From the NCBI GenBank assembly GCA_030605195.1, contig JAUWBB010000006.1:1-34313 (forward strand): a stretch of 34,313 bases of DNA, written 5' to 3'. Below, in pieces: positions 1 through 31,173 of the stretch; positions within the stretch are counted from its first letter, which is position 1; every line of letters begins with the position of its first letter. The notes below the pieces were generated by a model. It saw only the letters and a list, made by a program, of their open reading frames with translations. It did no database searches and was not told where the DNA came from. A program made the translations under genes and the position numbers. The DNA is from Bacteroidota bacterium (GTDB lineage: Bacteria > Bacteroidota > Bacteroidia > Bacteroidales > VadinHA17).

Positions 1-91
1 TAATTGATATTTGGAATTTATTTGTTATTTGTTTTTTGTTATTTGGTGCTTTAATTCAAAATTTGTTTGACTTTATGGACTGACATTAAAT
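1..91. repeat. Partial copy of AT-rich intergenic repeat (right half)
   Basis: This AT-rich stretch ends with GACTTTATGGAC (69-80). It is close to the reverse complement of 3740-3822, sharing the TTATTTGGTGCTTTAATTCA stretch. It is probably the right part of the same element found whole at 3731-3945 and 33162-33451, cut by the window edge. No coding potential was seen. Confidence 0.7.
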
Positions 92-129
92 AGTCCAGTC
101 TTCAGGTTGCCGACTGCCGACTGAAGATT

Positions 130-163
130 GCCCGCCCGTACCGAACGGTACGTTCGGGCGGGC
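130..163. other. GC-rich long hairpin
   Basis: GCCCGCC (130-136) pairs with GGCGGGC (157-163), and CGTACCG (137-143) pairs with CGGTACG (146-152) around an AA loop, with a TTCG bulge on the right arm. It is strongly GC-rich in AT-rich surroundings. No T-tract follows, so it is not a classical terminator. It could be a mobile palindrome or the end of an upstream transcript. Confidence 0.6.
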
Positions 164-237
164 CGACTTAAAAATGCAAAGTATAATGAAATTAGCCATT
201 ATCAAACCATAAATATTGAACTTAACGTAACGATCTT

Positions 238-3200
238 TTGAACGAAGTGAGTAAATTCCGATACATATCAAATAGGGTTTTAATCATATTTTTATGGCTG
301 TTAATGCCGCTGTTCTTTTATGGATGTGGCAAACAGGCAGAGAAACAATCTGCCAATCAACTGTTTACACTCATGCCTGCTTCTGTTACCCACGCTGATT
401 TTATCAATCATCTGGATTACGATGAGCAATTTGAGAAAAAGTTCAATATATACACATACCGTAATTTTTACAATGGCGGTGGTGTGGGCTTAGGGGATGT
501 GAATAATGATGGTCTCATCGATATATTTATGACTTCCAATATGGGCTCTAACGTGTTGTATTTGAATAAGGGAAATCTTGAGTTTGAAGATATATCAGAC
601 CTGGCGGGCATTGCAGGCAAAGGCCAGTGGTCAACAGGTGTCAGCCTTGCCGATGTAAACGGAGACGGGTGGACGGATATATATGTATGTAACTCGGGAA
701 ATGTAAAAGGTGATGAAAAGCGAAATGAATTGTATATTAATAACGGGGATCTTACATTTTCAGAACAGGCAGAAGATTATGGTATAGATGATCCCGGTTA
801 TTCTACACACGGGGCATTTTTTGATTACGACAAGGACGGTGATCTTGACTTGTATTTGTTGAACAATTCTTTCAAAGCCATTGGCAGTTTCAGTCTGAGT
901 GATAACCAACGGTTTGTCCGGGATTCTATCGGCGGGGATAAGTTGTTCAGAAACGATAACAATAAATTTACGGATGTTAGTGTTGAAGCGGGTATTTATG
1001 GAAGCGTGATTGGATTTGGACTTGGTGTTACGGTTGGGGATATCGACCAGGATGGTTGGATGGATATTTATGTATCGAATGATTTTTTTGAAAGAGACTA
1101 CATTTATATCAATAATCATGATGGAACATTTAAGGAAACACTGGTAGATATGATGCGATGCACTTCTGCAGCTTCCATGGGAGCCGATATGGCTGATATA
1201 AATAACGACCGGTATCCGGAAATATTTGTGACCGATATGATTCCCGAGCATGACGAGCGCTTAAAAACAAAAACAACATTTGATAGCTGGGATAGTTACA
1301 AATCGAATGTTGAAAATGGTTATTACCATCAGTTTACACGCAATATGCTGCATTTAAACAATGCTGACGGCACGTTCAGTGAAATTGGCAGGCTGTCCGG
1401 TGTATATGCTTCCGACTGGTCGTGGGGCGCCTTGATCATGGATCTCGATAATGACGGTTTGAAGGATATTTTTATAGCTAATGGTATTTATCAGGATCTG
1501 ACCGATCAGGATTATATTCAATATTTTTCAAACCGGGATATGGTCTTATCTATTGTGTCAGGTAATAAGGTGGATTATAAAACCCTGATTGATGCCATTC
1601 CCTCGGTTAAAATCTCCAGTTATGCCTATAAAAATATGGGAAACTACAAATTTCAAAATATGGCGGTTCCCTGGGGGCTTGCTATGCCGAGTCATTCAAA
1701 TGGATCTGCATACGGCGATCTGGATAATGACGGTGACCTGGATCTCGTGGTTAACAATGTGAATATGCCCATGTTTATTTACCGTAATGAAACCAATCAC
1801 CTGTTACCGGACAATCACTATCTGAAAGTAATTTTAAAGGGTGAACCCGGAAATACAGCAGCCATCGGTGCCAAAGTGACGGTCAAACATAAAGGCAATA
1901 TTGTATATCTGGAGCAAATGCCGATGCGCGGATTTAAATCTACGGTCGATTTCCGCCCTAATTTGGGATTGGGTCCATTAACCATGGTGGATTCCCTCAT
2001 CATTGTATGGCCGGATGACCGGATTACAATTAAAACAGATGTACAAACAGATCAGATTTTAACCTTATATCAGAAAGACGCCGTTACAATGTCATTGCAC
2101 ATTGTAGATTCTGTAAGCTCTGAAAATGCTTATTTTGAAGATATAAGCAGGGATAGCAGAATAAATTTTATCCATAGGGAGAATGATTTTGATGATTTTA
2201 GAAGGGAACGTTTAATTTATCACATGATGTCGACCGAAGGGCCGCGTATGTGCAAAGGTGATGTAAATGGAGATGGACTGGATGATATATATGTCGGTGG
2301 TGCCAAAGGACAACCGGGAGCCTTGCTGATACAGCGCGCGAATGGTACCTTTGTGCCGGTTGATAATGCATTGTTTGAAACAGATAAAATATCAGAGGAT
2401 ACGGATTGCACCATGTTCGATGCGGATCAGGATGGGGATCTGGATTTGTATGTTGCCAGTGGAGGTAATGAATTTCCGTTGAGTTCATCGGCTTTGAGCG
2501 ATCGTTTGTATATAAATGATGGCACGGGGCATTTTGTCAAATCATCGCAAATATTACCTGCGGGAAAGTATGAGAGTACCTCATGTGTCAGGGCTGAGGA
2601 CTTTGACAATGATGGTGATATGGACTTGTTTGTTGGCTTGCGCCTTAAGCCGTTTTTATATGGTGTACCGGTAAATGGCTATCTATTGGAGAATGACGGG
2701 AAAGGAAATTTCACAAATGTAACTGCACAAATTGCCCCGGAGCTTATAGATGTTGGCATGATCCGTGATATGTTGTGGGAAGATGTGAATGGGGATGGAG
2801 ATAAGGATATGATCCTGGCAGGAGAATGGATGCCATTAAAAGTATTCTTAAATGAGAATGGTAAATTTAAAGAATTAAAAGAAGCCTTTTTTCATGATAA
2901 AACACATGGGTGGTGGAATTGCCTGGCAGCCGGCGATTTTGATGCCGATGGGGATGTGGATTTTGTAGCCGGAAACCACGGGTTAAACTCAAGGTTTCAG
3001 GCAACACCTGAAAAACCGGTGACCATGTATGTTAACGATTTTGATTTGAATGGTACAACGGACCAAATTATATGTGTTTACGAAGGTGATATATCGTATC
3101 CTTTGGCCTTAAAGCATGATCTGACCAGGCAATTGCCAGGGTTGATAAAAAAATATCCGAAATATGAAATGTATAAAGGTCAGCAGATTACAGATATTTT

Positions 3201-3618: not shown

Positions 3619-3730
3619 AACATTCTTATGAAACCCTCATCCTTAGGTAGGTAAATAAATAAAGATACAAAAACAAAAGGACATGTATAAAATAATATTT
3701 TTGTGAGGTAACAAATACCACAGAACTTAA

Positions 3731-3945
3731 TTAGTGTCCGTCCATAAAGTCAAACAATTTTTGAATTAAAGCACCAAATAACAAAAAACAAATGACAAAT
3801 AAATTCCAAATATCAATGATCAAATGTTCAAAACAGCTTTGAATATTGTGATTTAGATCATTGAGATTTATTTGAATTTTGGTGCTTGTTATTTGTGATT
3901 TTTTAATATTTATTTAAACTTTCGGACTTTATAGACAAACTCTAA
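3731..3945. repeat. MITE-like AT-rich element with terminal inverted repeats
   Basis: The left end (3731-3751) carries GTCCATAAAGTC. The right end (3925-3945) carries GACTTTATAGACAAACTCTA, roughly its inverse complement. The interior is itself an imperfect inverted repeat of TTTGAATTTTGGTGCTTGTT-type sequence. It fills nearly all of the gap between the two VCBS genes. A related whole element is at 33162-33451, and partial copies are at 1-91, 20490-20546 and 25320-25440. No ORF lies inside, so it is probably non-autonomous. Confidence 0.7.
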
Positions 3946-4000
3946 TTAGTTGCACTTTACCAACAAGTAAAATACAGGCCTTTAATATTGATTTAAACTC

Positions 4001-7000
4001 ATGAGAAATTCAATTTTAATTTTGCTTGTACTTTTATTGGTTTTTTCCTGTAACCCTGAGGAAAAAGAAAGAGATTATTTGTTTACGTTGTTATCTCCTT
4101 CCTACACGCATGTTGATTTTATAAACCAACTGACAGAAACCGAGCAATTTAATATCATTGAATATCTTTACTTCAATAACGGTGCAGGGATTGCCGCCGG
4201 AGACATCAATAACGATGGTCTGATAGACTTATATTTCACTTCCAGTCAACAATCCAATAAATTATACTTAAACAAGGGAAATCTTAGATTTGAAGATATC
4301 ACAGATGGTGCCGGGATGGCAGGAAAGGGTGATTGGACGACCGGTGTTACGATGGCAGATGTGAATGGGGATGGTTTTTTGGATATTTATGTTTGTCAGG
4401 TCGGGAATTATAAGGGTCTTCAGGGGAGAAACCAACTATTCATTAATCAGGGTGACCTGACATTTAAAGAGGAGGCCCATGACTACGGGCTTGATTTTCA
4501 GGGCTTTTCTACCCAGGCAGCTTTTTTTGATTACGATATGGATGGGGATCTTGACATGTATCTGTTGAACCATTCGGTACATACTTTCCGTAGTTATGGT
4601 GGTGCTGCTTTGCGCTTTGGTCATGATGCACGCGCAGGCGACAGGTTGTACAGAAATGATGAGGTAGAAGGAAGGCGTGTTTTTCGTGATATTACCCGCC
4701 GGGCAGGTATATATAGCAGTCAGATTGGTTATGGTTTAGGAGTAAATATCTGTGACATCAACAACGATGGTTTTCCCGATATTTATATATCGAATGATTT
4801 CCACGAAAATGATTATTTATATATCAATAACGGTAATGGCACTTTTTCAGAGCGATTGACAGAAATGTTAGCGCATACGAGCAGATCCTCAATGGGTAAC
4901 GATGTTGGAGATATCAACAACGATGGCCTTTTGGATGTGATGGTGTTGGATATGCTGCCGGATGAGCAAAATATTTTAAAACAATCGGGCGGGGAAGATG
5001 ACTATGAACTCTTTGAAATTAAGCTAAAATACGGTTATTATCACCAGTTTGTGCGAAATACGCTCCAACTCAATTTGGGTGGGGGAATGTTTAGTGAAAT
5101 TGGGCGGTTGGCCGGGGTTTACGCCACTGACTGGAGTTGGTCGCCTTTGTTTTGTGATGTGGATAATGACGGATGGAAAGATATTTTTATTACCAATGGA
5201 ATATACCGCAGGGCCAATGATCTGGATTATGTCAAATTTTTAACAGGAGGGAACAGATATTTTCCGACGCGGGATAATAGTGATGTTCCGAATAAAGTGT
5301 TGTACGAGAAGATGCCCCTGTATCCAAATGTCAATTATATCTATAAAAACAATGGCGATCTCACATTTACAAATATGGCTAAAGCATGGGGTTTTGACAC
5401 CAGGTCTTATTCCAATGGCTCCACTTATGCAGATCTCGATAATGATGGCGATTTGGATCTTATTGTCAACAATATCAATGGCTCAGCTTTTATCTACAGG
5501 AATAATACCGAAACGCAGTTGAATAACCATTATTTATCTGTTGTATTAAAAGGAAAAGGTTTGAACACACGAGCAGTAGGGACCCGTGTTACTTTGTTTT
5601 GTAATGGTCAGAAAATAGTCGCTGAGCAATTTGCAACAAGGGGATTTATGTCCGCCACCTCCGATGTGTTACATTTTGGATTGGGGCCAACGAATGTGAT
5701 TGATTCACTTGTTGTGCGTTGGCCGGACCGGTCGGAACAAATGTTCAATGATGTGCCGGTTGATCAGGTTATAACATTAGAAATGAAAAATGCGGGGAAG
5801 CCTGTATCAGGGAATGAGCAGGAAAATGAGAACGTGAAATTGTTTTCCCCGCTCCGGATCCCGGGACTTGAGTACAGGCATAAAGAAGATGCTTATGTGG
5901 ATTTAAACCGTGAACGCCTTATACCTCATAATTTATCGGCGGAAGGACCGGCTCTGGCTGTTGGTGATGTAAATGGTGACGGGCTGGATGATTTGTTTGT
6001 GGGTGGGGCAAAAGGGCAGGCAGCCATGTTGTTTACACAACAAAATGACGGAACTTTCAAGCCATTGCATGTGCCTCTTTTTATAAAAGACCGCTTCACC
6101 GAAGATGTTGATGCAGCCTTGTTTGATGCTGATGGAGACGGTGATCTAGATCTGTATATTGTACGGGGAGGCAATGAGGTACCCGTTGGGAATCCGTTGC
6201 TGGCTGACAGGCTGCTCATAAACGATGGAAATGGAAGATTTAATAAGTGTGAAAAAGGATCATTGCCTTTTATGGCTTATAATGGATCCTGTGTGCGGCC
6301 GGCCGACTTTGATAGCGATGGTGATTTGGACTTGTTTGTGGGTTCGAGATCTCTGCCGGGTGCCTATGGATTGTCACCCGGTCAGTTTCTTCTTGAAAAC
6401 GATGGAAATGGCATTTTTAAGGATGTAACAGATCATCGAACGAAAGGGCTAAAAGATGCCGGTATGGTGACTGACGCACGCTGGATTGATTATGACCGGG
6501 ATGGTGACCCGGATTTGGTGTTGGTGGGTGAATGGATGAAAGTATGTATGTTCAGGAATGATGGGGGGCATTTTACTGACATAACCGGTCCAACAGGTCT
6601 GGATGAAACATCAGGATGGTGGAATTGCATACAAGTTGCTGATGTTGACCGGGATGGGGATTTGGATTTAATTGGCGGGAATTTAGGACTGAATTCATTG
6701 CTAAAGGCTTCAAAGCAAGAACCGGTCGAAATGTATGTGAATGATTTTGATAATAATGGTTCGCTTGACCAGGTGATCTGTTCCTATCATAACGGTATAA
6801 GTTACCCCATAGCTTCTTTGGATGAGCTGGCTGGTCAGATGGCCGGCTTAAAAAAGAAGTATCCCAATTATTCTGATTTTGGAGGAAAGACTGCAAAGGA
6901 TATCTTTGGAAAGGAAAAATTGGACCAATCCATCATAAGAAGAGCAGTGCTTTTTGAAAGTTGTCTGTTCCTGAATAATGGAGATGGAACATTTGAAATA

Positions 7001-7315
7001 AATGAACTTCCCAAAATAGCCCAGTTTTCCCCGGTTCGCGATATTTTTATTCATGATTTTGACCTTGATGGGAAGAGTGACCTTGTTCTGGTCGGCAACA
7101 ATTATTCCGTGAGACCTTCTGTCGGTCGTTATGATGCCAGTTATGGCTGGTGTTTATTGGGTGAAACAGGTCATGGATTTAATGCATTGATGCCGGTGGA
7201 AAGTGGTCTTAGGATAAACGGAGATGCAAGGAGGATACATCCGATTGAGGTACTGGGAAAACATTTTTTGGTGGCCGTAGTAAATGACGGAAATCTGCAA
7301 ATATTCCAATATTAA
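4001..7315 (+). CDS. VCBS/FG-GAP repeat lipoprotein with ASPIC/UnbV domain (CRTAC1-like), copy 2
   Basis: An 1104-residue lipoprotein with a short signal peptide and predicted lipidated C17 (VFSC). It has about fourteen DxDxDG loops, for example DINNDGLID, DYDMDGDLD, DLDNDGDLD, DADGDGDLD and DVDRDGDLD. An ASPIC/UnbV domain lies at about residues 508-596 (LHFGLGPTN, VRWPDRS). The domain order matches the upstream gene throughout, including the GYYHQF, SEIGRL, DWSW, GWWNC and VGRYDASYG segments, so the pair arose by tandem duplication. The two copies are well diverged, which argues for an old event and separate ligands. The ATG start is well placed for the signal peptide. The intergenic repeat of about 215 bp between them suggests separate promoters. 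Function is inferred as extracellular binding or assembly. Confidence 0.9.
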   Translation: MRNSILILLVLLLVFSCNPEEKERDYLFTLLSPSYTHVDFINQLTETEQFNIIEYLYFNNGAGIAAGDINNDGLIDLYFTSSQQSNKLYLNKGNLRFEDITDGAGMAGKGDWTTGVTMADVNGDGFLDIYVCQVGNYKGLQGRNQLFINQGDLTFKEEAHDYGLDFQGFSTQAAFFDYDMDGDLDMYLLNHSVHTFRSYGGAALRFGHDARAGDRLYRNDEVEGRRVFRDITRRAGIYSSQIGYGLGVNICDINNDGFPDIYISNDFHENDYLYINNGNGTFSERLTEMLAHTSRSSMGNDVGDINNDGLLDVMVLDMLPDEQNILKQSGGEDDYELFEIKLKYGYYHQFVRNTLQLNLGGGMFSEIGRLAGVYATDWSWSPLFCDVDNDGWKDIFITNGIYRRANDLDYVKFLTGGNRYFPTRDNSDVPNKVLYEKMPLYPNVNYIYKNNGDLTFTNMAKAWGFDTRSYSNGSTYADLDNDGDLDLIVNNINGSAFIYRNNTETQLNNHYLSVVLKGKGLNTRAVGTRVTLFCNGQKIVAEQFATRGFMSATSDVLHFGLGPTNVIDSLVVRWPDRSEQMFNDVPVDQVITLEMKNAGKPVSGNEQENENVKLFSPLRIPGLEYRHKEDAYVDLNRERLIPHNLSAEGPALAVGDVNGDGLDDLFVGGAKGQAAMLFTQQNDGTFKPLHVPLFIKDRFTEDVDAALFDADGDGDLDLYIVRGGNEVPVGNPLLADRLLINDGNGRFNKCEKGSLPFMAYNGSCVRPADFDSDGDLDLFVGSRSLPGAYGLSPGQFLLENDGNGIFKDVTDHRTKGLKDAGMVTDARWIDYDRDGDPDLVLVGEWMKVCMFRNDGGHFTDITGPTGLDETSGWWNCIQVADVDRDGDLDLIGGNLGLNSLLKASKQEPVEMYVNDFDNNGSLDQVICSYHNGISYPIASLDELAGQMAGLKKKYPNYSDFGGKTAKDIFGKEKLDQSIIRRAVLFESCLFLNNGDGTFEINELPKIAQFSPVRDIFIHDFDLDGKSDLVLVGNNYSVRPSVGRYDASYGWCLLGETGHGFNALMPVESGLRINGDARRIHPIEVLGKHFLVAVVNDGNLQIFQY

Positions 7316-7484
7316 CCCGAAAAATTAACTTCGTTGAGTTCGCAAGCTCGGTTCACAGAATTTTTCGCCATTTATGGCTGACGAAAAGCCAAATTCAAGT
7401 ATATCAATTGTTTAATTCAACTTTAATTCTCAAAACTGATAAAAAATCCATATCCAAATTTGATGTTATTGAATTTGACTTTTA

Positions 7485-7535
7485 TCAGGGTTAACCCTGA
7501 CATACATAATTGGAAATCACCAGATTCCAATTATG
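7485..7535. terminator. Palindrome plus hairpin between convergent genes
   Basis: TCAGGGTTAACCCTGA (7485-7500) is a perfect 16-bp palindrome. CATAATTGGAA (7505-7515) pairs perfectly with TTCCAATTATG (7525-7535) around a 9-nt loop. They lie between the plus-strand VCBS gene ending at 7315 and the minus-strand GH130 gene ending at 7586, as expected for a two-way terminator. A strong T-tract is absent, so this is only a candidate. Confidence 0.4.
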
Positions 7536-7585
7536 TTTCGTCATTGTTAATGCTGGAAGCATGAATAATTCGGGTTAAAATGAAT

Positions 7586-8683
7586 TTATTCTGAAACCGC
7601 TACACCAACATACGAATCTGCTGTTCCATAATAAAGGAACCATTTCGATTTATAATATACGAGACCTTCTGCAAATATGGTTCCCGATTTATATTGACCG
7701 GATATCTCATGCGGAAGGGTTGGTTTTAATAAGTATGTATCGGAACGGGAAATAACTTTCTCCGGATTGTTAATATCAAAAACTATTTTTCCCACCGAAT
7801 AAATTCCTTTTGGTAAGTCAGGGTCAGAGTCTTCTGCTTCAGAGTTTCTGCCATTATAGAACAGGACAATACCATGATCCATCATTATTGCAGGTGGTCC
7901 GCATTCCGTAAGATGGCTATCAAATTTATTTCTTCGTGGCTTAACTATAGCTTTCAGTTCTCCCTGTTTGTTTAATAATGGATACCAATCTATTAAATTC
8001 TCAGACCATGCAAGATTGATAAAATTTTCACCCCAGTACATCCAATATCTATCATTAATCTTTGCCACTATTTGCCGGTCTCCATCCATTTTTGTGATAA
8101 TGGATCCGGATTTAGACCAATGATCTAAATATTTACCATCATAAACCCTGGCAAATGCAGGTCCTTTCTTCTCCCAGTTTATCAGGTCTTTTGAGAATGC
8201 GATGCTTAACCTGGCAACCTCTTGATTCCATGAAGTATAGGCCATTACATACAGGCCATCTCGTGTTTCAACGACCCTGGGGTCCTCACAGCCGCCAGGA
8301 TAATCGTATTGTAAAAAGTCACTACTGTCGGGGTATAAAACAGGCGTAGGATATTTTGTGAAATGGATGCCATCTTCGCTATAAGCCAAACCAATTCTGG
8401 AAGTTCGTCCACCAAGAATAGCTTCTGGATTATCTTCACAACGAAGTAGTAAATATACCTTGTTGTCTTTTATAATGGCAGCCGGGTTAAAGACATCTGC
8501 TTTCTGCCACTGTACCAACTCATTTTTTACCGGACAAACAAAAGTTAAAGTTGAATCAGCTTTAATAATCGGGTTTTCGTCTGGTTTATAAAAAGTTTGA
8601 AAATCCCAATCAAATGTATGATTTGTATTACATCCAAGGTTAATTAATAATACTAAATAAAGAATACTCTTTTTCATTTCCAT
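7586..8683 (-). CDS. GH130-family beta-mannoside-acting enzyme, lipoprotein
   Basis: A 365-residue protein with a lipoprotein signal (predicted C18, NLGC) followed by a five-bladed beta-propeller of the GH130 type. The hallmark GGCEDPRV motif carries the probable catalytic aspartate D135. Blade motifs such as RIGLAYSEDGIHF, LSIAFSKDLINWEKKG and the closing YYGTADSYVGVA are typical. GH130 enzymes are phosphorylases or hydrolases of beta-1,4- or beta-1,2-mannosides. Export as a lipoprotein makes a hydrolase more likely than a phosphorylase, which would need cytoplasmic phosphate. It is the last gene of a minus-strand operon 42 bp downstream of a small ORF, behind a NagB-like gene. That would fit use of mannosyl-GlcNAc glycans (inference). 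The start may be codon 1 or the ATG at codon 3. Confidence 0.82.
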   Translation of the reverse strand: MEMKKSILYLVLLINLGCNTNHTFDWDFQTFYKPDENPIIKADSTLTFVCPVKNELVQWQKADVFNPAAIIKDNKVYLLLRCEDNPEAILGGRTSRIGLAYSEDGIHFTKYPTPVLYPDSSDFLQYDYPGGCEDPRVVETRDGLYVMAYTSWNQEVARLSIAFSKDLINWEKKGPAFARVYDGKYLDHWSKSGSIITKMDGDRQIVAKINDRYWMYWGENFINLAWSENLIDWYPLLNKQGELKAIVKPRRNKFDSHLTECGPPAIMMDHGIVLFYNGRNSEAEDSDPDLPKGIYSVGKIVFDINNPEKVISRSDTYLLKPTLPHEISGQYKSGTIFAEGLVYYKSKWFLYYGTADSYVGVAVSE

Positions 8684-8725
8684 AGTCCTTTTATCAATGC
8701 AATTAGTTAGGTATATTACTTATTG

Positions 8726-8896
8726 TTAATAATAACCGATACTCAATTTTTGTTTTAAAAAATCTATCAGATTATCAACATCATGATCGATGCAAGCGTC
8801 AAATCCCAGGAAAGCGCTGGCATCAATAATTTCATTATGACTAAGCTGAAATCCTATTTCAGGGATGGCGTCAATGATTCGTTTATTCACACCCAC
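8726..8896 (-). CDS. Small ORF (56 aa), possible remnant of a PfkB-type sugar kinase
   Basis: This short frame starts at GTG four bases after the nagB stop and ends 42 bp before the GH130 start, inside a tightly spaced operon. The product has an acidic, helical look, with the segments RIIDAIPEIG, AFLGFDACID and NLIDFLKQKL. The LGFDACID stretch resembles the first beta strand and substrate loop near the N-terminus of PfkB carbohydrate kinases, but the rest of a kinase is absent. One reading is an in-frame deletion that joined the start and end of a kinase gene; another is an unrelated small protein. The frame is real on position and codon pattern, but its identity is a guess. Confidence 0.4.
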   Translation of the reverse strand: MGVNKRIIDAIPEIGFQLSHNEIIDASAFLGFDACIDHDVDNLIDFLKQKLSIGYY

Positions 8897-8900
8897 TCAT

Positions 8901-9623
8901 TTAGAGATATTTAGAGGCATCCTTGTCAAGAAGCAAAAAGGAATTCAAATGCGATTTTACAATTGAAGCAGGAAAAGCAGGAGAAATTTCACTATCAATC
9001 AATCGTCTGGCAACTTCAGCCTTCTTTGTACCGTTCAATTGTAAAATTACCGTTCTAGCCTCCATGATGTATTTTAATCCCAGAGAAATACCGGAAGTAA
9101 GTTGCACTTTACCCGAGAAGTATTTCTGGCCAACAATTTTTGTAGTTTCATCAAGATCAACGATATACGAATAGAGATCGAAAGAGGTTCCTGGTTCGTT
9201 TAATCCAAGATGGCCGTTCATTCCCATACCTAGCAGAATCATGTCAATAGGACCATTTTTTCTAATAAAATCATCAGTCTTAATACATTCTTGAACAAGA
9301 TCAGACGATTCGCCATCGAAAAAGCAAAAATTTTCTTCAGAATAATCAATGTGATCAAACAGATGTTTTTTCAGAAATGAGAAACAATTTTCGCTTCTCA
9401 TCTCTCCAATGTTTGCCCATTCATCCAATCCGACAATTCTACAATTCTTAAAACTGATTTTTGCTGATTTATTAAGTTCTATCAAATGCCTGAAAGTACC
9501 CACTGAGGTTTCTCCTGCAGGAAAACAGAGTAGCGCATCAGGTTTATCCGAAATAATGGCTGCAATCATTTCCGCAGTTTTCACCGATAGTTCGGAATAA
9601 TTATCATAAATGATTTGTTTCAC
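8901..9623 (-). CDS. nagB: Glucosamine-6-phosphate deaminase-like protein (NagB/6PGL family)
   Basis: A cytoplasmic enzyme of 240 residues, typical of the short NagB/AgaI type. It probably converts glucosamine-6-phosphate, or a related amino-sugar phosphate, into a ketose phosphate and ammonia. Visible motifs are FPAGETS at about 34-40, GLDEW at 65-69 (likely catalytic D67), GMGMNGHLGLNEPG at 132-145 (H138 and E143 matching the ring-opening residues), and LTSGISLGL. The NGH form of the loop is usual in Gram-positive-type NagB and is not a defect. The C-terminal allosteric region of the enteric enzyme is absent. It lies 51 bp downstream of the Gfo/Idh gene and 4 bp before the small ORF. An amino-sugar role is likely; exact substrate epimer unknown. 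Confidence 0.82.
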   Translation of the reverse strand: MKQIIYDNYSELSVKTAEMIAAIISDKPDALLCFPAGETSVGTFRHLIELNKSAKISFKNCRIVGLDEWANIGEMRSENCFSFLKKHLFDHIDYSEENFCFFDGESSDLVQECIKTDDFIRKNGPIDMILLGMGMNGHLGLNEPGTSFDLYSYIVDLDETTKIVGQKYFSGKVQLTSGISLGLKYIMEARTVILQLNGTKKAEVARRLIDSEISPAFPASIVKSHLNSFLLLDKDASKYL

Positions 9624-11952: not shown

Positions 11953-12532
11953 TTTTTGTTGATTTTCTTGTTATTCAAAATGAGAATGATACGGTACCTT
12001 CGCACTTAATATTTTTTTATTAAAATACAATTATAAAGGCATCGTTGCAACAGTAATTGACTTTAAGATTCAGAATTAAGCTATGTATTAATAATCAATA
12101 AGAATTTTGATCCATGCAAGTTAAAAAAAATTTAGTAACTAAGGAATAGCTATATAAGTTATTGTGTAAATAACCGGTATGACTACATCAAAACCCCATT
12201 TGGGCATTTGGGGAGTGAGTTTTTGTATTTGGGAAGTTTTTAATGACTTGTTTTCATATAATTTAGTAAAAGCGGTCTGGTATAATAATTCAGAATTAAC
12301 GGAAGAACCTCTTTTTTTTAATCCCTCTCATTATAAACCTTTTTTCGTTTGGATGTAATTTGATTTAATATTAATTTTCTTTTTAATTTACATGGGAATA
12401 GGCTTTTGAAACAACGATCCGGGAGGATCGTTATAAAGGATTGCAGTAAAACGAAGTTCCGGTTCGTTTATTCACCGGCAAATCGAGTTAATTAGTCATT
12501 CAACCTATAACGCATTTTAGTTTCACCTGACA
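11953..12532. other. Long intergenic region between divergent operons
   Basis: There are 580 bp without a convincing gene between the DUF1080 operon (minus) and the GH53 remnant (plus). It should hold both promoters, but no clear consensus pair could be fixed. Short repeats of ATTTGGG occur around 12199-12235 (three close copies). A perfect hairpin, AACGATCC-GGGA-GGATCGTT, lies at 12413-12432 and could be an operator or the 5' leader of the plus-strand transcript. A SusCD pair or regulator expected in such a locus is absent. Confidence 0.5.
12413..12432. promoter_or_regulatory. Perfect palindromic hairpin upstream of GH53/GH13
   Basis: An 8-bp perfect stem AACGATCC/GGATCGTT with a GGGA tetraloop, 100 bp before the GH53 start. 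It may be a regulator site or an RNA leader hairpin. No T-tract follows. Function is inferred only from its position. Confidence 0.35.
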
Positions 12533-12834
12533 ATGAAAATAAAAGTATTTATAGTTTTGTGTATTTGCTCATCGTTGTTTAAGTCTTGTAATAAAGGTAA
12601 AAATGTAAAAAACAACAACGGCAATGATACTATTATGATATTCTACGAACCAAACCAATTTTGCATGGGGGCAGACCTTTCCTGGTGGTGTTTTACTGGG
12701 AACCAGGCTGGATTTCTTCAAATATAAAAACGCTATGGGGGCAAGGATCTGCCTGGGAATGTAATACACTTTTTGATTTTCAGGGGAATGTTATTAAGGG
12801 AATGAATTATCTGACTTATCCGTATAAATTTTAA
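12533..12834 (+). pseudogene. GH53 endo-beta-1,4-galactanase remnant with internal deletion
   Basis: The first 51 codons encode a lipoprotein signal (C19 in FKSC) and a mature start with the GH53 signature MGADLSW. Directly afterwards the reading frame changes, and another frame gives VFYWEPGWIS, then GQGSAWECNTLFDFQGN up to a TAA at 12832-12834. That is the recognisable C-terminal block of GH53 (FYWEP, GSSWEN, ALFDF patterns). About 250 residues holding both catalytic glutamates are missing. The junction is near 12678-12690, around a TGGTGG sequence. The N-terminal frame alone runs to 12727. The remnant ends 3 bp before the intact GH13 start, so it was its operon partner. No active galactanase can be made. 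Confidence 0.8.
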
Positions 12835-12837
12835 ACC

Positions 12838-14688
12838 ATGAAGCTAAAGATTTTTTCAAGTGCATTTTTAATCATTTCTATTGCAGCAATAACATATGTA
12901 AATGCCCAGATAAACCATGTTGAACCTCCATTCTGGTGGGCCGGGATGAAAAATCCGAGTTTACAGCTTATGGTGCATGGAGAAAATATATCAGCAACAA
13001 AAGTTGTGCTTGATTATGAAGGGGTTGAACTGAAGTCCGTGAATTCTGTTGAAAATCCGAATTTCCTGTTCATTGATTTACAATTATCCCCTGGCGTAAA
13101 CCCCGGGAAATTTGATATCTCTTTTAAAAAAGATGGAAAAACGACAGAATCGTTTACGTATGAGTTGAAAAAAAGGCAACCAGGTTCTGCACAGCGGGAA
13201 GGGTTTAAAAACTCCGATGTCATGTATCTGATAATGCCTGACCGGTTTGCAAATGGTGATTCTTCCAATGATTCAATGGATGGAATGAAAGAAGGCTTCA
13301 ACCGCAAAGATCCCCTGGGTAGGCATGGGGGTGATATCAAAGGAATAATTGATCATCTTGACTACATTGCCGATATGGGATTTACAACCATTTGGTTAAA
13401 CCCGGTTCTGGAAAATGATCAGACAAGAACTTCATACCATGGTTATGCCACTACTGATTTTTACAACGTAGACGGACGGTTCGGATCCAATGAAGATTAC
13501 AGGCAACTGGGTAGAATTGCAGAAGAAAAAGGAATTAAATTGGTTATGGATATGATCTTTAATTACTGTGGTTCAGAACATTGGTGGATGGATGATATGC
13601 CAACATCTGACTGGATCAATTTTTATCCCGATTATGTGAGAACAAATCACAGAAGAACCGTGAACCAGGATCCTCATGTTTCGAAAATTGATTTAAAAAG
13701 AATGACAGAAGGTTGGTTTGTCCCAACCATGCCTGACCTTAATTTGAGAAATCCTTTTCCGGCAAATTATTTGATCCAGAACAGCATTTGGTGGATTGAA
13801 TACATTGGATTGAACGGGATAAGAATGGATACCTATCCATATACCGACAAGTATGCAATGGCAGAATGGAACAGGCGGGTTTTAGAAGAATATCCTGATT
13901 TTAACATTGTGGGAGAAGAATGGAGTTTGAATCCTGCCATCGTTTCTTATTGGCAAAAAGGACAGAAAAATAGTGATGAATATGATGGAAATCTTCCCAG
14001 TGTAATGGATTTTCCGCTTCAGAACGCACTTAGTAGAGGATTAACTGAAAAAGAAGGAGGAAATAATGGATTGGTTAAACTTTATGAAGCCCTGGCCAAT
14101 GATTTCCTGTATCCTGATCCATACAACCTGGTGATTTTCCCGGACAATCATGATATGAGCCGTTTTTATATGCAGGTAGGTATGGATGTCGATCTGTTTA
14201 AACTGGGAATCGTTTACATTCTTACTACCCGCGGTATCCCTCAGATCTTTTATGGTACTGAAATATTAATGACTCATAAAGAAAGTAATAGTCATGGCCA
14301 TATCAGGAAAGATTTTCCCGGTGGTTGGGAAGACGATAAAGTAAATGCATTTACCGGGAAAGGACTCTTAAAAAAAGAAATTGAAGTTCAAAACTTCTTT
14401 AAAAAACTTCTGAATTGGCGAAAAGAGAATCCGGTAATCCATACCGGAAAACTAACTCATTTTGCACCTGAAAATGGAGTCTATGTTTTTTTCAGATATA
14501 ATAACGATAAAAAAGTGATGATCGTTTTAAATAAAAACAAGGAAGATCATCATTTGAAACTTAATAGATTCAATGAAATGATTGGTGGCTGTTCAAAAGG
14601 AAAAGATGTGATTAGTGAAAAACAATTTGATCTGAAGGATGAAATAATTATTCCTGCTTTAACTCCTTTAATTTTGGAATTACATTAA
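12838..14688 (+). CDS. SusA-like GH13 alpha-glycan hydrolase (neopullulanase/cyclomaltodextrinase type)
   Basis: A 616-residue periplasmic enzyme with signal peptide 1-23 (cleavage near NAQ). An N-terminal beta-sandwich at about 24-120 (starting near VEPPFWWAGM) is followed by the GH13 barrel. The GH13 regions are intact: DMIFNYCGSEHWW, GIRMDTYPY (nucleophile D331), NIVGEEW (acid/base E360) and FPDNHDMSR (transition-state D439). A C-terminal beta domain ends the protein. It hydrolyses alpha-1,4 linkages of starch-derived oligosaccharides in the periplasm. The ATG is 3 bp after the stop of the GH53 remnant. The locus lacks SusB, SusC and SusD, and its GH65 and second GH13 partners are broken, so it may be the last working piece of a starch/maltose locus. 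Confidence 0.93.
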   Translation: MKLKIFSSAFLIISIAAITYVNAQINHVEPPFWWAGMKNPSLQLMVHGENISATKVVLDYEGVELKSVNSVENPNFLFIDLQLSPGVNPGKFDISFKKDGKTTESFTYELKKRQPGSAQREGFKNSDVMYLIMPDRFANGDSSNDSMDGMKEGFNRKDPLGRHGGDIKGIIDHLDYIADMGFTTIWLNPVLENDQTRTSYHGYATTDFYNVDGRFGSNEDYRQLGRIAEEKGIKLVMDMIFNYCGSEHWWMDDMPTSDWINFYPDYVRTNHRRTVNQDPHVSKIDLKRMTEGWFVPTMPDLNLRNPFPANYLIQNSIWWIEYIGLNGIRMDTYPYTDKYAMAEWNRRVLEEYPDFNIVGEEWSLNPAIVSYWQKGQKNSDEYDGNLPSVMDFPLQNALSRGLTEKEGGNNGLVKLYEALANDFLYPDPYNLVIFPDNHDMSRFYMQVGMDVDLFKLGIVYILTTRGIPQIFYGTEILMTHKESNSHGHIRKDFPGGWEDDKVNAFTGKGLLKKEIEVQNFFKKLLNWRKENPVIHTGKLTHFAPENGVYVFFRYNNDKKVMIVLNKNKEDHHLKLNRFNEMIGGCSKGKDVISEKQFDLKDEIIIPALTPLILELH

Positions 14689-14828
14689 AACTATTGTGAT
14701 TAAAATTACTAAAATGAGTGAAAAGACATAATGTTATAAAATGTTATAAGTTATATGTTATATGTTAATTGTTATAAGTTCAGAACTCCTGACCCACTAC
14801 TTAATTATAAAACGATTATAAGAATATA

Positions 14829-14980
14829 TGGCTATGTTTCATAATCTTGTTGGTTTTTTAATTTTTTATCCTACTCGTCTGACCACTAAGATGTTCAAAT
14901 TTATTATTATATCTCATTATTAGCATAATATTTTAAATCTAATCATAAAGTTAAACAGTAGTAGTGGTCTGACGAGTATC
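14829..14980. repeat. MITE-like repeat, family CTCGTCTGACCAC, copy A
   Basis: The core 14872-14978 is bounded by TACTCGTCTGACCACTA and TAGTGGTCTGACGAGTA, a 17-bp terminal inverted repeat with one mismatch. The core is nearly identical to 18909-19014 (one substitution seen, GCATAAT/GCATGAT). Similarity extends about 40 bp to the left (CATAATCTTGTT). The rest of the 350-bp gap 14689-15038 is AT-rich, with repeats of GTTATAAGTTATATGTTA type. Confidence 0.8.
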
Positions 14981-15038: not shown

Positions 15039-15788
15039 ATGAATCGTCTTTCATACAACTCTGTGTCTCTCCCTGTCTGCTCCATGATTTTCTGTGTACA
15101 GGACAGGCAGCTATCGTTGAAGCACTTCCGGCTGGCGTTCAGGATGGAATCAATTACACCACTGACACTTCTGTTACCCTTGTATTACATGCTCCCAACA
15201 AAAATCATGTATTTGTAATCGGAGATTTCACAGACTTGCTAGCCAGGGAGAAAGGTTATATGAAAGTTACACCTGATACAGCAAGGTATTGGATAGAAAT
15301 TAGTGGACTCACTCCCCCAAAAGAATATCGTTATCAATACCTTGTGGATGGTGAATTACTCATCGCCGATCCTTATGCAGATAAACTTCTCGATCCCTGG
15401 AACGATTACTATATTACAAATGAAACATACCACGGCTTAATCGAATATCCTGAAAATTATACTTCAGGCATCGTATCGGTTCTTCAAACTGGTCAGGAAG
15501 AATTTCAATGGCAGATTGCCGGATTTCAGGCTCCTTTAAAAACCGACCTGGTTATTTATGAATTGTTGATTCGTGATTTTATAGCCACCAGGCATGATTA
15601 CAAGACATTGATTGATACGCTAAGTTATTTGGACAATCTTGGAGTAAATGCCATTGAACTTATGCCAGTTAATGAATTTGAAGAGAATCTGAGCTGGGGA
15701 TATAATCCGTCATTTTGTTTTGCACCCGATAAATTTTATGGTCCGAAAGAAGATTTCAAAGCATTCGTTGATAGTTGTCATGCCCGGG
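15039..15788 (+). pseudogene. Truncated and frameshifted second GH13 alpha-amylase-family gene
   Basis: An ATG at 15039 opens a signal-peptide-like segment (MNRLSYNSVSLP...). The main frame from about 15104 is offset from it, so a frameshift lies near 15095-15107. The main frame gives AIVEALPAGVQDGINY, then an early-set/CBM48-like domain (HAPNKNHVFVIGDF), and then the start of the GH13 barrel (DLVIYELLIRDF, LGVNAIELMPVNEF, WGYNPSFCFAPD). It breaks off at CHARE, before any catalytic residue. The break falls at the CCCGGG palindrome 15783-15788, where an opposite-strand CotH fragment begins. The longest internal frame runs 15236-15829, but its last 14 codons are anti-sense CotH sequence. It is not functional. 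It probably once worked with the GH13 gene at 12838. Confidence 0.85.
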
Positions 15789-16311
15789 AAAGAACAAACT
15801 CCTCATCGATGTGTTCCACATTGATATAAAGTCCAAAATAGTTTTCGTTAATATATAATTCCACGTGATTGGATCTGGGAGCAGGGATCTCAAACTTTCT
15901 AAGAACATACCAGCAAAGCTTGGCCCGGATCACCGAAGGATCATTATGTTCGCCGTTAATGTTCATCTTCTCCAGTCCATAATACTTACCTCCAGGAATA
16001 AATGAATTGAATGAAATTTTAAATGATTTCTTTTGAGAATAGCGGGAAGTATTTCCGCGAAGTCTGAAGCTAACAGATTTAACGGTATCTGCAATGGTTC
16101 CTGCATGAAAAATAAATGTTGCCGGATATTCATGATAACTTGTTAAATCATCATAAATTGCCTGGAATGAATCCGGGTCGATGAGAATTTCAATCTTTGG
16201 GATAATTGAATCAGTAAATACAGGATCTGATGTAGGAAAGGATGGCTACGAAAAACCTGAGGAAATCAGGATCCGGGAAAATACAATTAATAATAATCCT
16301 GTTTTATTCAT
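15783..16311 (-). pseudogene. CotH-like protein, 3'-truncated with a nonsense codon
   Basis: The ATG at 16311 starts a signal peptide that is stopped by TAG at 16246-16248. The same frame then stays open and gives clear CotH family blocks: FRLRGNTSRYSQKKSFKIS, LEKMNINGEHNDPS, AKLCWYVLRKFEIPAP and VELYINENYFGLYINVEHID. It breaks at EEFVLSRA, at the GH13 junction 15783-15790. CotH proteins are atypical kinases, and in Bacteroidota many are secreted. The C-terminal catalytic part is missing here. The start lies 25 bp after the esterase stop, so the two were probably co-transcribed. The surviving open frame from an internal ATG covers only 15778-15966. Confidence 0.83.
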
Positions 16312-16335
16312 ACACCTGAAACATCGGTTGATGAA

Positions 16336-17082
16336 TTATTTCTTATGTTTTAATAACCAGTCATAGAATTCCGGATTGTCATATGTTTCGGTCCATGAAT
16401 CATGACCTGCCTCAGGATAGATAGTGAACCTGACATTTCCCTCAATTTTTTTAAGCGCTTCAACCATCTCTTCAGATTTTTGGATAGGAACTACGTTATC
16501 CTTCGCCCCATGAAAAACCCAGATGGGTATATGGCCAATTCTGTTGACCAGGACTGGGTTTCCTCCTCCACAAATGGGTACAATAGCAGCGAATTTATTC
16601 GGATATTTAACAGCCAGTTCCCAGGCACCAAACCCTCCCATACTTAATCCTGTAAGATAGACCTGGTTCGTATCCACCCGGTAATCCCGGATTATTTTTT
16701 CGAGCAAAAGATTCAAATCTTCCGCAATCCACCATTGTTCTTTAGGACATTGCGGGGAAACAATAATAAAAGGAAAGTCCTTTTCTTCAACTATTTTGGG
16801 AGGTCCGTGTTTTTTTACCAGTTCAAGGTTTTTCCCTCTTTCATCTACACCATGGAGAAACAGCAGAACTGGCCATTCTTTTGTTTTATCCTGGTGATAA
16901 CCAGCTGGAAGATAAAGCAAATAGTCCATGTGAACCACTTTTTTGACATCAAGACTTTTACTCAGTTGATGTTGCATCTTATCAGGGTTTGAATGATTCG
17001 ATCCGCATGATGTTACTGCCAAAACTAAAAATAAAAAAAACGAAACTGAAGAGAAGTAACTTATAAAGTTTTCATACTTCAT
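16336..17082 (-). CDS. Alpha/beta-hydrolase esterase lipoprotein
   Basis: A 248-residue secreted lipoprotein (predicted C26, AVTSC) of the PHB-depolymerase/feruloyl-esterase-like group of alpha/beta hydrolases. The oxyanion segment VLLFLHGVDERG is followed by the nucleophile elbow GLSMGG (S147), HGAKDNVVP (D195) and EAGHDSW (H227), a complete catalytic triad. The family removes acyl or aromatic esters from sugars, or hydrolyses small esters; the exact substrate is not shown. It lies just upstream of the broken CotH gene on the same strand. The start gives a good signal peptide. It appears intact. Confidence 0.87.
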   Translation of the reverse strand: MKYENFISYFSSVSFFLFLVLAVTSCGSNHSNPDKMQHQLSKSLDVKKVVHMDYLLYLPAGYHQDKTKEWPVLLFLHGVDERGKNLELVKKHGPPKIVEEKDFPFIIVSPQCPKEQWWIAEDLNLLLEKIIRDYRVDTNQVYLTGLSMGGFGAWELAVKYPNKFAAIVPICGGGNPVLVNRIGHIPIWVFHGAKDNVVPIQKSEEMVEALKKIEGNVRFTIYPEAGHDSWTETYDNPEFYDWLLKHKK

Positions 17083-17412: not shown

Positions 17413-18492
17413 TTAATTATTTTTGTTCAATGCGTTTAAATCCTTAAAGGCTTCTTTAAGTCTTTCAATAAAGCTTTCTTCTCCTTTTCTTAACCAGGCA
17501 CGTGGATCATAAAACTTTTTATTGGGTTTATCTTCGCCTTCCGGGTTACCAATTTGGCCCTGCAGAAAATCCTTCTTGTCTTTATAGTAACCGTGAACAC
17601 CATCCCAAAATGCCCATTGCATATCGGTATCGAGGTTCATTTTAACAGCGCCATATTCAATTGCCTCGGTAATCAGATGCTTTTCCGATCCTGATCCTCC
17701 ATGGAATACAAAATTCACCGGATTTGGACCCGTATTGAATTTCTGCCGGATATAATCCTGAGTATTTTTAAGAATGGCCGGTTTTAATTCGACATTTCCT
17801 GGTTTATAAACTCCGTGCACATTTCCAAAGGCCGCGGCTATAGTAAAATAATCACTTATCTTTTTCAGTTCTTCATAAGCATAAGCCACCTCTTCAGGTT
17901 GTGTATATAACCTGGAGCTATCCACACCGGAATGATCAACCCCGTCTTCTTCACCTCCTGTTACGCCTAATTCAATCTCGAGAGTCATACCGATTTTACT
18001 CATTCTCTCAAGATATTTTTTACAAATTTCAACGTTCTCCTCAATCGGCTCTACAGACAGATCGAGCATATGAGAACTATAAAGAGGGTGTTCGTGTTTT
18101 TCATAATATTTTTCACCAAAATCCAATAATTGGTCAATCCATGGTAGAAATTTTTTTGCAGCATGATCGGTATGCAGAACTACCGGAACGTTATAATATT
18201 CAGCCATAACATGCACATGTTGGGCTCCTGATATACCCCCCGCGATGGCAGCTTGGTGATTTTCATTGGAAAGCCCCTTCCCTGCAAAGAAAACAGCTCC
18301 ACCATTGGAAAACTGTATGATTACAGGCGAATTAACTTCTCTCGCGGTCTCCAATACAGCATTTACCGAATTCGTTCCCACAACATTAACGGCAGGTATT
18401 GCAAAATTGTTCTCGTTTGCATAATCAAAAAGCGCTTTTACATCCTCTCCATATAAAACGCCTGGCTTAAAATTTAATCCCCTATTGCTCAT
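17413..18492 (-). CDS. fbaA: Class II fructose-bisphosphate aldolase
   Basis: A cytoplasmic, zinc-dependent glycolytic enzyme of 359 residues, full length for the class IIA group. It interconverts fructose-1,6-bisphosphate with dihydroxyacetone phosphate and glyceraldehyde-3-phosphate. Visible motifs are the VVLHTDHAAK metal/catalytic histidine-aspartate block, the EIELGVTGGEEDGVDHS loop, GNVHGVYKPGNVELKP with a zinc histidine, FVFHGGSGSE, and KMNLDTDMQWAFWDG near the C-terminus. It stands alone with its own terminator. It lies between broken carbohydrate genes but is itself intact, as expected for a housekeeping gene. Confidence 0.95.
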   Translation of the reverse strand: MSNRGLNFKPGVLYGEDVKALFDYANENNFAIPAVNVVGTNSVNAVLETAREVNSPVIIQFSNGGAVFFAGKGLSNENHQAAIAGGISGAQHVHVMAEYYNVPVVLHTDHAAKKFLPWIDQLLDFGEKYYEKHEHPLYSSHMLDLSVEPIEENVEICKKYLERMSKIGMTLEIELGVTGGEEDGVDHSGVDSSRLYTQPEEVAYAYEELKKISDYFTIAAAFGNVHGVYKPGNVELKPAILKNTQDYIRQKFNTGPNPVNFVFHGGSGSEKHLITEAIEYGAVKMNLDTDMQWAFWDGVHGYYKDKKDFLQGQIGNPEGEDKPNKKFYDPRAWLRKGEESFIERLKEAFKDLNALNKNN

Positions 18493-18738: not shown

Positions 18739-19016
18739 GCTATGGCCCATAATCTTGTTTGTTTTTTAATTTTTCAACCTACTCGTCTGATCACTACGAC
18801 ATTATGGCTTCCAATTCAAATTAAAATTCAAATCAATGAGTCTAATTCGTCTGATCGCTATGACATTATGGCTTACAATTCAAATTAAAATTCAAACCAA
18901 TGGGTCTAACTCGTCTGACCACTAAGATGTTCAAATTTATTATTATATCTCATTATTAGCATGATATTTTAAATCTAATCATAAAGTTAAACAGTAGTAG
19001 TGGTCTGACGAGTATT
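18739..19016. repeat. MITE-like repeat, family CTCGTCTGACCAC, copy B with 64-bp tandem units
   Basis: Two 64-bp units (18781-18844 and 18845-18908) start with CTCGTCTGAT or TTCGTCTGAT and share ACATTATGGCTT, CAATTCAAATTAAAATTCAA and the end GTCTA. They precede a complete element, 18909-19014, that matches copy A (14872-14978) almost base for base. Each unit restarts with the terminal-repeat sequence, as if the left end had been duplicated. No ORF and no spacer diversity, so not CRISPR. Confidence 0.8.
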
Positions 19017-19029
19017 AAAAAAACGACGA

Positions 19030-19354
19030 CTAAATACTGAATGGTTGCAATACAACTAAAGCAACTGATTGATCAGAAAGATTAAAAACATTTACTTCAA
19101 GGTTTGATACGCTAACCTTCAATAAACTTCCGCGAAAATGAACCTTAAAAGAATAATTTTTCCATTGTTCCGGTATTTGAGGCTTAAAATGAATTTTGTT
19201 ATCCCTGACCCGCGTACCACCGAACCCTTTAACAATTGACAACCAGGTTCCGGCCATTGCCCAGGACAAAAATGCTTTCGGAAGCCCGGTTATATTCGGG
19301 ATGAAAACCTTCTTCAATGATCAGCCACTCATGGTGCTTAATATATGAATTCAA
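19030..19354 (-). pseudogene. GH65 maltose/trehalose phosphorylase-type remnant with internal deletion
   Basis: From about 19354 (TTG) a frame reads YIKHHEWLIIEEGFHPEYN, RASESIF and LGNG, the standard N-terminal opening of Bacteroidota GH65 proteins. At about 19253-19262 it meets, in another frame, AGTWLSIVKGFGGTRVRD followed by HFKPQIPEQW and FKVHFRGSLLKVSV. That is the C-terminal end of the same family, running to the stop at 19030. GH65 proteins are usually 650-800 residues, and only about 34 plus 74 remain, so the (alpha/alpha)6 catalytic barrel is gone. GH65 enzymes phosphorolyse maltose, trehalose or related disaccharides, which fits the neighbouring GH13 genes. It is not functional. 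Confidence 0.82.
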
Positions 19355-19608: not shown

Positions 19609-20481
19609 ATGACAGACCCTGATCTGCAAATACAACATTACCTGAATAAACAGGAAAATGTCAAGGCTTATTCAGAAAATGAATTTTACCCTGTTGAAAT
19701 ACAGATATCTTTAAATAATAAAACGATATATATAAGAAGTAAAATTTCAGAATATTCAAGAATGTATCGCGGCGATATAATGAAAATTACCGGGCATAAC
19801 CACAAAGTGGTCAGGTATATTCTTCAGGGATATTACACGGAAGATTTCTATAAAAAAGTTTTCAAAGAAAAACTTTTCCCTCTTTACGATCTTTTTATGG
19901 ATGAAATCGATTTGATTACCAGGATACTGGATTTCAATAAACCGTTTGATCTCAAGAACTTTTCCCCTAACAATTTTAGTAGGGAGTATGCTAAACACAC
20001 AACTGAGATAACCTATATTCTTAATGATTGCCTGAAAGAACATTATTTAGATGAAATCAAAGGACTTTTTGTAAAAAGTACCGATCCAAAAAAGAGTAAA
20101 GAAGTATTTAAAATTTCCAATTATTTCATACATTTTATCAATTGGGAAAACCGGTTTTGCGACTTTTATGAGATTACTTATGAAGTTCTTCCAAGCGAAT
20201 TAAAATTAATAGAAAATTATTTTTCCGATGAGCTGAAAACGCTTATAAAAGCTTATATGGCTTTTCATACCCAGGTGAATATTTTAAAAAGAACCTTCGA
20301 GAAAAGAAATCCCGGCAGAATCTCTACCCTTTCCTATTTTGAATGGGAAAGTCATATCAAAGATTTTATAGTCAATAAGTTTGAGGAAATATTCGGTAAA
20401 AATAAAGCCCTTGAATATATAACAAGTTTAGACAAGGTTTTAACAGATTATATGAGCAGGTCGGCTCTGCGAACCGCATAA
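19609..20481 (+). CDS. Conserved-looking protein of unknown function (290 aa)
   Basis: I do not recognise this family. The protein is soluble, with no signal peptide or membrane segment, and is rich in lysine, glutamate and aromatics. The N-terminal 50 residues look beta-rich (YPVEIQISLNNKTIYIRSKI), a short strand pair loosely like the N-terminal arm region of some phage-type integrases. The remainder looks alpha-helical, with aromatic clusters (YFIHFINWENRFCDFYEI). No catalytic motif, zinc ligands or recombinase R-H-R-Y set is visible, so an integrase call is not supported. The ATG is the only sensible start. It converges on the YgjP-type gene, with 62 bp of repeat-like DNA between. Confidence 0.75.
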   Translation: MTDPDLQIQHYLNKQENVKAYSENEFYPVEIQISLNNKTIYIRSKISEYSRMYRGDIMKITGHNHKVVRYILQGYYTEDFYKKVFKEKLFPLYDLFMDEIDLITRILDFNKPFDLKNFSPNNFSREYAKHTTEITYILNDCLKEHYLDEIKGLFVKSTDPKKSKEVFKISNYFIHFINWENRFCDFYEITYEVLPSELKLIENYFSDELKTLIKAYMAFHTQVNILKRTFEKRNPGRISTLSYFEWESHIKDFIVNKFEEIFGKNKALEYITSLDKVLTDYMSRSALRTA

Positions 20482-20489
20482 AGTTGAGT

Positions 20490-20543
20490 TTTTGAATTTG
20501 ACATTTGATATTTATTTGAATTTTGGGATTTGTTTATTGTGAT
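20490..20543. repeat. Short partial copy of the AT-rich repeat
   Basis: The stretch containing ATTTGATATTTATTTGAATT and TTGGGATTTG matches pieces of the 3731-3945 and 25320-25440 elements. It lies between two convergent genes and is too short to show terminal repeats. Confidence 0.5.
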
Positions 20544-30145: not shown

Positions 30146-30159
30146 AACGAATAAAAGAT

Positions 30160-31173
30160 TTAACGATTAACTCTGTCCCTGATACTTTTGAAAACAAACA
30201 TAAGAATAAGGGCAAGAAAAAAAGCCGACACAGTAGATACAAAAACAATCAGGCTTTTGTTGGGATATGATTTTTTCTCTGCCATGTATGCATGATCCAC
30301 TATAAATTTATAAGGTAGATTCTGATTAGCATCAACCTGCGCTTCAGCATATTTAGCTTTTAGTTCACTCAAATGCTCCTTTTCGTACTCGAGGAAATCA
30401 CTAATAGAGACATAAGCTCCGCCATATCTCTTTAATATCTCTAATTTCTTTTCGATTTCCCTGGCTCCTTCAACATTTTTTTCTACAATAGCAACGGCAT
30501 AAGCATTGCTAAACATTTCAGCCTGTGCTTCATAATCATAAACACCAAAGCTCCTGAGGACATTTAACGAATCCTCCAAAACCCGGATCTGGTCACGAAG
30601 GGAAAAATACTCCTCTTCCACCACTTTTAATGCCAGAAATGCCCTGTCCTGTTGCATCAGGTTCATGGTGGAATCCATAAGCGATGCAATGTTATTAGCT
30701 ATATTGGCAGCAATTTGCGGATCGGTATCCAGTACTGAAATTTCAACCGACATGAATTGCGTCTTTTTAAAGCTAATGTTCTTCTTATACTTGTTACGAA
30801 GTCTTGTCAACGGAAATTTTGAGTCCGGATCAACTTCATAATGATCCGTCAAATCATATTTCTTAATAATCCTGTCACGTATCTGACTTGAATTCAATAC
30901 CTGTAAAATATGCTCAGCCTCTTCCTCCTCCCCTAAGGTTAAAATTCCCTTCTGATAAGGATTATCGGTTAAGAGGGTTTTAGAAACCGATGTGGATGAA
31001 GCAGGAAACATAACCACAGTTGATTTGAACTTGGGAGGAATGGTAAGGGAGGCTATTAACGAAACTAAAAAAGCGAATAAAGAAATAACTATCAGGGGGA
31101 TTTTTCTCCTGTATAAGTACAAGATCAAATCAATCGAATCAAAACGAAAATCTTCATTTTTTGAATTTTCCAT
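30160..31173 (-). CDS. Wzz-type polysaccharide chain-length determinant
   Basis: A 337-residue inner-membrane protein with two membrane helices (about 30-50 and 310-330) and a long periplasmic coiled-coil region between. The FDSIDLILYLYRRKIPLIVIS opening and the IPPKFKSTVVMFPAS segment are typical of Wzz/GumC-like polysaccharide co-polymerases. There is no C-terminal kinase domain, so it belongs to the short Wzz group. It sets the length of polysaccharide made with the downstream ligase/polymerase. A 487-bp intergenic region lies upstream (31174-31660) and must contain its promoter. Confidence 0.88.
   Translation of the reverse strand: MENSKNEDFRFDSIDLILYLYRRKIPLIVISLFAFLVSLIASLTIPPKFKSTVVMFPASSTSVSKTLLTDNPYQKGILTLGEEEEAEHILQVLNSSQIRDRIIKKYDLTDHYEVDPDSKFPLTRLRNKYKKNISFKKTQFMSVEISVLDTDPQIAANIANNIASLMDSTMNLMQQDRAFLALKVVEEEYFSLRDQIRVLEDSLNVLRSFGVYDYEAQAEMFSNAYAVAIVEKNVEGAREIEKKLEILKRYGGAYVSISDFLEYEKEHLSELKAKYAEAQVDANQNLPYKFIVDHAYMAEKKSYPNKSLIVFVSTVSAFFLALILMFVFKSIRDRVNR

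Follow-up and report, generated by a model that had tools for sequence, protein, structure and literature searches.

The window, by which we mean the whole stretch of 34,313 nucleotides analyzed here, raises the question of how the two ends of a single GH53 (PF07745) gene came to lie side by side with nearly everything between them missing, and whether this arrangement records a genuine loss in the genome or a fault in its assembly. Positions 12533-12834 carry the first ~50 and the last 48 codons of the gene in different frames. Frame 1, beginning at 12533, reads MKIKVFIVLCICSSLFKSCNKG...FCMGADLSW and then continues out of frame until a stop, and frame 3, ending at 12834, reads ...FYWEPGWISSNIKTLWGQGSAWECNTLFDFQGNVIKGMNYLTYPYKF (FYWEPGW to the stop). 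The assembly studied (G000) is a draft, 83.5% complete, whose 393 contigs total 3.04 Mb. The nearest relative compared, CSMAG_1571 (G001; DAOVQI010000069.1), belongs to the same genus; changes were polarized against this one congener, with which wider relatives agree. The features of the remnant are as follows.

12516, unstranded: left limit of similarity to CSMAG_1571; susE/D/C, which lie 5' of GH53 there, are not present in the window
12533-12683, forward strand: GH53 N-terminal stub (lipoprotein signal plus MGADLS), 50 codons, in frame with 0 stops; 92% nucleotide identity to the intact CSMAG_1571 gene over 12516-12683
12684-12690, forward strand: junction filler GGTGGTG (7 bp), replacing 884 bp of CSMAG_1571 (7874-8757, contig C18 reversed)
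12691-12834, forward strand: GH53 C-terminal stub in frame 3, FYWEPGW...PYKF to the stop; ~97% nucleotide identity to CSMAG_1571; PF07745 at 35.5 bits (cut-off 24) over profile positions 296-339 in a Pfam profile search

The orthologue in CSMAG_1571 is intact (395 aa, PF07745 E=4e-98), occupies the equivalent position and adjoins the same cyclomaltodextrinase gene. It also matches the solved structures of GH53 endo-beta-1,4-galactanases, among them 7osk (6e-51) and 1r8l (8e-42), and each window stub shows homology to one end of these galactanases. In contrast to them, the window copy is without residues 54-348, the 884 bp absent relative to CSMAG_1571. Two glutamates of the orthologue, E189 (GNEIN) and E296 (VETAY), align with GNETN and AETSY of 1r8l; we take them, from established knowledge of the GH53 family, to be the catalytic residues, and both fall within the deleted part. 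No single open frame spans the GH53 domain, and the family profile is matched by the C-terminal stub only, which is the sole GH53 match across the whole assembly. Likewise, no second copy of the deleted segment was found elsewhere in the assembly, at its 83.5% completeness. The window copy is therefore described here as a predicted pseudogene devoid of catalytic residues, whose product would be at most a short lipopeptide. A preliminary description made from the sequence alone had already recognized both termini of one GH53 protein within 300 bp in different frames and had proposed a recent, clean internal loss; the reading frames, profile match and orthologue confirm the first point, the identity of both halves to the intact gene upholds their GH53 homology, and the well-kept stubs beside an intact orthologue support the second. 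Adjacency of GH53 and cyclomaltodextrinase is also seen in other genera (L005, L006, L009, L010, L011, L024 and L075). The more distant CSMAG_2868 (L023) carries lacI, three ORFs matching susC/D/E in size and order, cyclomaltodextrinase, amylase, a second GH13 and a hydrolase, arranged as in CSMAG_1571 and with no GH53.

The junction itself is less simple than first described. The absent segment had been put at about 750 bp with nothing inserted, which underestimates the gap and overlooks the 7 bp between the matched ends. Alignment with the closest intact GH53 gene, which had been recommended for locating the breakpoint and any flanking short repeat, placed the breakpoint and revealed no such repeat relative to CSMAG_1571. 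Nucleotide identity is 85% overall across 12691-14754, a stretch that runs from the C-terminal codons into the neighbouring gene. The TGGTGG direct repeat to which the deletion had been tentatively attributed is found neither near nor within the CSMAG_1571 gene, at neither end, and none of the other relatives examined shows it at the corresponding codons; GGTGG occurs once in the CSMAG_1571 gene region, 24 bp inside the deleted part. Slippage on TGGTGG was rejected on the grounds that the intact gene lacks the repeat, and the absence of TGGTGG from that gene suggests that it is a product of the junction and not its demonstrated cause. No insertion sequence or recombinase gene was seen at the junction, and a search of viral contigs with the junction 34-mer gave no match. 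Candidate origins would include a repeat that has been masked by the divergence of CSMAG_1571, a pair of nested deletions, and end joining that left a filler of 7 bp.

The wider context, missed in the preliminary description, is that the GH53 loss is one among many deletions gutting a sugar locus. In the manner of the Sus-type starch utilization locus of Bacteroidota, CSMAG_1571 carries the order lacI, susC, susD, susE, GH53 and cyclomaltodextrinase on contig C18, and on contig C407 a secreted GH13 amylase, a second GH13, an alpha/beta hydrolase, a fructose-bisphosphate aldolase, GH65, a phosphatase-like gene and an MFS transporter (the C407 domain names are taken partly from homologues, and the phosphatase-like label was assigned by eye). 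Compared with this locus, the window retains whole only the cyclomaltodextrinase, the aldolase and a divergent hydrolase. The susC/D/E genes, the phosphatase-like gene and the MFS transporter are gone, the amylase is cut at both ends, and only the ends of GH65 are left. Flanking genes unrelated to sugar use (efflux, EF-P, TyrRS and others) are intact. The missing coding parts of C18 and C407 were searched for throughout the G000 assembly and none was found elsewhere.

12838-14688, forward strand: cyclomaltodextrinase (GH13; PF00128/PF09087/PF10438), intact, 616 aa without stops; a retained neighbour whose mosaic sequence diverges at the centre; dN/dS 0.12, dS 0.75
15103-15110, forward strand: 8-bp direct repeat ACAGGCAG at the junction of the amylase N-terminal deletion, 847 bp lost
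15111-15791, forward strand: secreted GH13 amylase stub, 227 codons, no stop; 91% to C407 2900-3586
15792-16312, reverse strand: CotH-like 5' stub (assignment by eye only), open frame except for one early stop; no match in CSMAG_1571
17413-18492, reverse strand: class II fructose-bisphosphate aldolase (PF01116), intact; 93% nucleotide identity to CSMAG_1571, dN/dS 0.10
19049-19257, reverse strand: GH65 C-terminal stub; 95% to C407 8532-8740
19249-19257, unstranded: GH65 junction with 9-bp direct repeat TCCGGCCAT; 1943 bp lost
19249-19354, reverse strand: GH65 N-terminal stub; 96% to C407 10684-10801
19366-19371, unstranded: point at which 2359 bp, with the phosphatase-like and MFS transporter genes, were deleted

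The amylase stub is missing ~225 aa before it and ~470 aa after it, and the CotH-like stub converges on it, both being without their 3' ends. Where the amylase tail and second GH13 stood, window positions 15792-17082 hold the CotH-like stub and the hydrolase (66% identity to CSMAG_1571), and this interval is a putative replaced segment, not a plain deletion. The retained cyclomaltodextrinase shows a pattern of its own: its centre (13091-14091) is 69-85% identical to CSMAG_1571 and its ends 89-97%, with a dS of 0.75 against 0.1-0.3 in neighbouring genes, and the centre looks like an allelic replacement from a divergent donor. The lacI of the lost locus exists as a C-terminal stub on contig C251 (L166; reverse strand, 3835-4166), followed by a different susC/D-like pair (reverse strand, 4398-9111) whose SusC shows 33% amino acid identity.

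The condition of the stubs bears on when these losses occurred. The amylase and GH65 stubs contain no internal stops, and their dN/dS values (0.20 over 227 codons for amylase; 0.12-0.25 over 97 codons for GH65) compare with 0.09-0.26 in intact neighbours. The pooled GH53 stubs differ from CSMAG_1571 by 9.5 nonsynonymous and 3.5 synonymous changes, numbers too small to judge, and the dN/dS of 1.1 for the N-terminal stub alone is based on just 9 differences. The lack of internal stops, together with dN/dS values mostly as in intact genes, indicates that most of the divergence from CSMAG_1571 arose before the genes ceased to function, and that the losses are recent on the scale of the divergence between the two genomes.

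The junctions of two neighbouring losses point to how they may have arisen. When 500,000 deletions of 0.2-3 kb were placed at random within the same contig, their junctions shared 8 bp or more in 0.029% and 9 bp or more in 0.009% of cases; the 8-bp repeat at the amylase junction and the 9-bp repeat at the GH65 junction are therefore not attributable to chance. The earlier proposal of slippage or microhomology-mediated deletion is thus unsupported at the GH53 junction, where comparison with CSMAG_1571 shows no shared repeat, and its general idea is right for the locus. Comparable deletions, occurring between short direct repeats with a median length of 8 nt and considered RecA-independent, are documented for S. 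agalactiae undergoing reductive evolution, in which a large loss may consist of several deletions in succession (PMC3637634). The amylase and GH65 junctions resemble that system; unlike it, the present case concerns a draft assembly from the Bacteroidota, with losses examined in two islands only. RecA-independent deletion between short repeats is the best account of these two junctions. We propose that the locus may have lost its use, that chance repeats of 5-9 bp could then have allowed its stepwise removal by replication slippage or RecA-independent recombination, and that stepwise deletion would have outpaced scarring by point mutations.

A comparison of random contigs between the two genomes, intended as a control, yielded no overlapping contigs, and a directed control stretch was used instead. 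This 20-kb stretch (contig C20) is colinear with CSMAG_1571 over 12 kb at 96-97% identity and then enters a second eroding island, with several successive small deletions. In this island (G000:C20:18673-19436; L193 and L215 versus L214), genes for a SusC-like TonB receptor, a lipase-like protein and a beta-propeller protein have disappeared, and what remains of an HsdR-like gene is pieces of ~90-150 bp. The alignments overlap by 11 and 7 bp at the junctions, with ~5 exactly shared bases each when read base by base, and these overlaps are weaker than the amylase and GH65 repeats. The second island suggests a genome-level process rather than one bad contig, with the caveat that a poor library could give the same result.

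Several other differences and repeats were recorded. Window positions 14873-14978 and 18909-19019 hold copies of a dispersed, MITE-like element of ~106 bp, the terminal inverted repeats of which are near-perfect (TACTCGTCTGACCACTA). The element has 21 matches in G000 and 55 in CSMAG_1571 (40 candidates scored per genome), forms a strong hairpin (z = -5.9) and found no match in Rfam. One copy lies inside the GH65 remnant, where CSMAG_1571 has none; a dispersed repeat is found near GH65, and none at GH53. Short dispersed repeats at window positions 1-275 and 3720-3950 flank FG-GAP/ASPIC-UnbV genes and recur many times in CSMAG_1571. That genome also has extra sequence at window positions 20474-20535 (747 bp, with a 202-aa ORF) and 30155-30160 (838 bp, with no ORF of at least 60 aa); the change could have gone in either direction at both sites.

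Taken together, the GH53 feature is very likely a real pseudogene, formed by a recent deletion in a sugar locus that is itself eroding. The alternative that would remove the observation altogether is an artefact of assembly or library, in which the true GH53 gene is intact and a chimeric contig skips its middle, as multiple displacement amplification or a misjoin, for instance, could produce. Amplification chimeras form at short homologies, and a draft of 393 contigs with several junctions within one contig invites such a reading. Against it, the skipped parts of GH53, GH65, the amylase, the second GH13, susCDE and the transporter are all missing assembly-wide, which is unlikely for so many pieces at 83.5% completeness; since the missing pieces are nowhere in G000, mere misjoining is disfavoured. 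Moreover, the junction homology of 0-9 bp is far below assembler k-mer length and too short for a misjoin, and the losses cluster in the sugar locus with housekeeping genes spared. Misassembly is thus unlikely, and we give the artefact as a whole little credence.

Two further readings accept the junction as genuine and differ over its history. The gene might be an old pseudogene that decayed slowly and lost its middle through many small events. With GGTGG present inside the stretch deleted relative to CSMAG_1571, the GGTGGTG filler could have been left by an intermediate, and the C20 island does show a succession of small deletions; stubs that are 92-97% identical to an intact gene, in frame and free of stops speak against such slow decay, which we regard as very improbable. 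Bacteroidota are known for outer-membrane sugar loci that invert and recombine, and on this general ground the catalytic segment might instead be an excisable or shuffled cassette whose absence is reversible. This would be an exceedingly improbable explanation, given that the segment has no second copy in the assembly, no recombinase gene lies at the junction, TGGTGG is lacking at the ends in CSMAG_1571, and neighbouring genes were lost likewise. In all probability, then, the middle of GH53 was removed by a clean internal loss of ~0.88 kb, and at least five separate losses, this one included, have taken apart a Sus-type starch/maltose locus in this lineage.

The kind of event is already known: this is ordinary genome erosion, seen at a fresh stage. 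A literature search found no report of a gutted GH53 gene within such loci. For genome annotation, it follows that a GH53, GH13 or GH65 match can be listed although no enzyme remains. It is doubtful, though conceivable, that the lineage sheds accessory loci almost purely through repeated deletions of 0.2-10 kb, leaving fresh gene ends before point mutations accumulate; if true, this habit would suggest that a short-homology deletion pathway is unusually active or that repair is defective. G000 represents an uncultured member of the Bacteroidota, its congener is one of the CSMAG metagenome-assembled genomes, and the pair offers a stepwise snapshot of the loss of a sugar-utilization locus, with stubs that can be dated and junctions that can be read.
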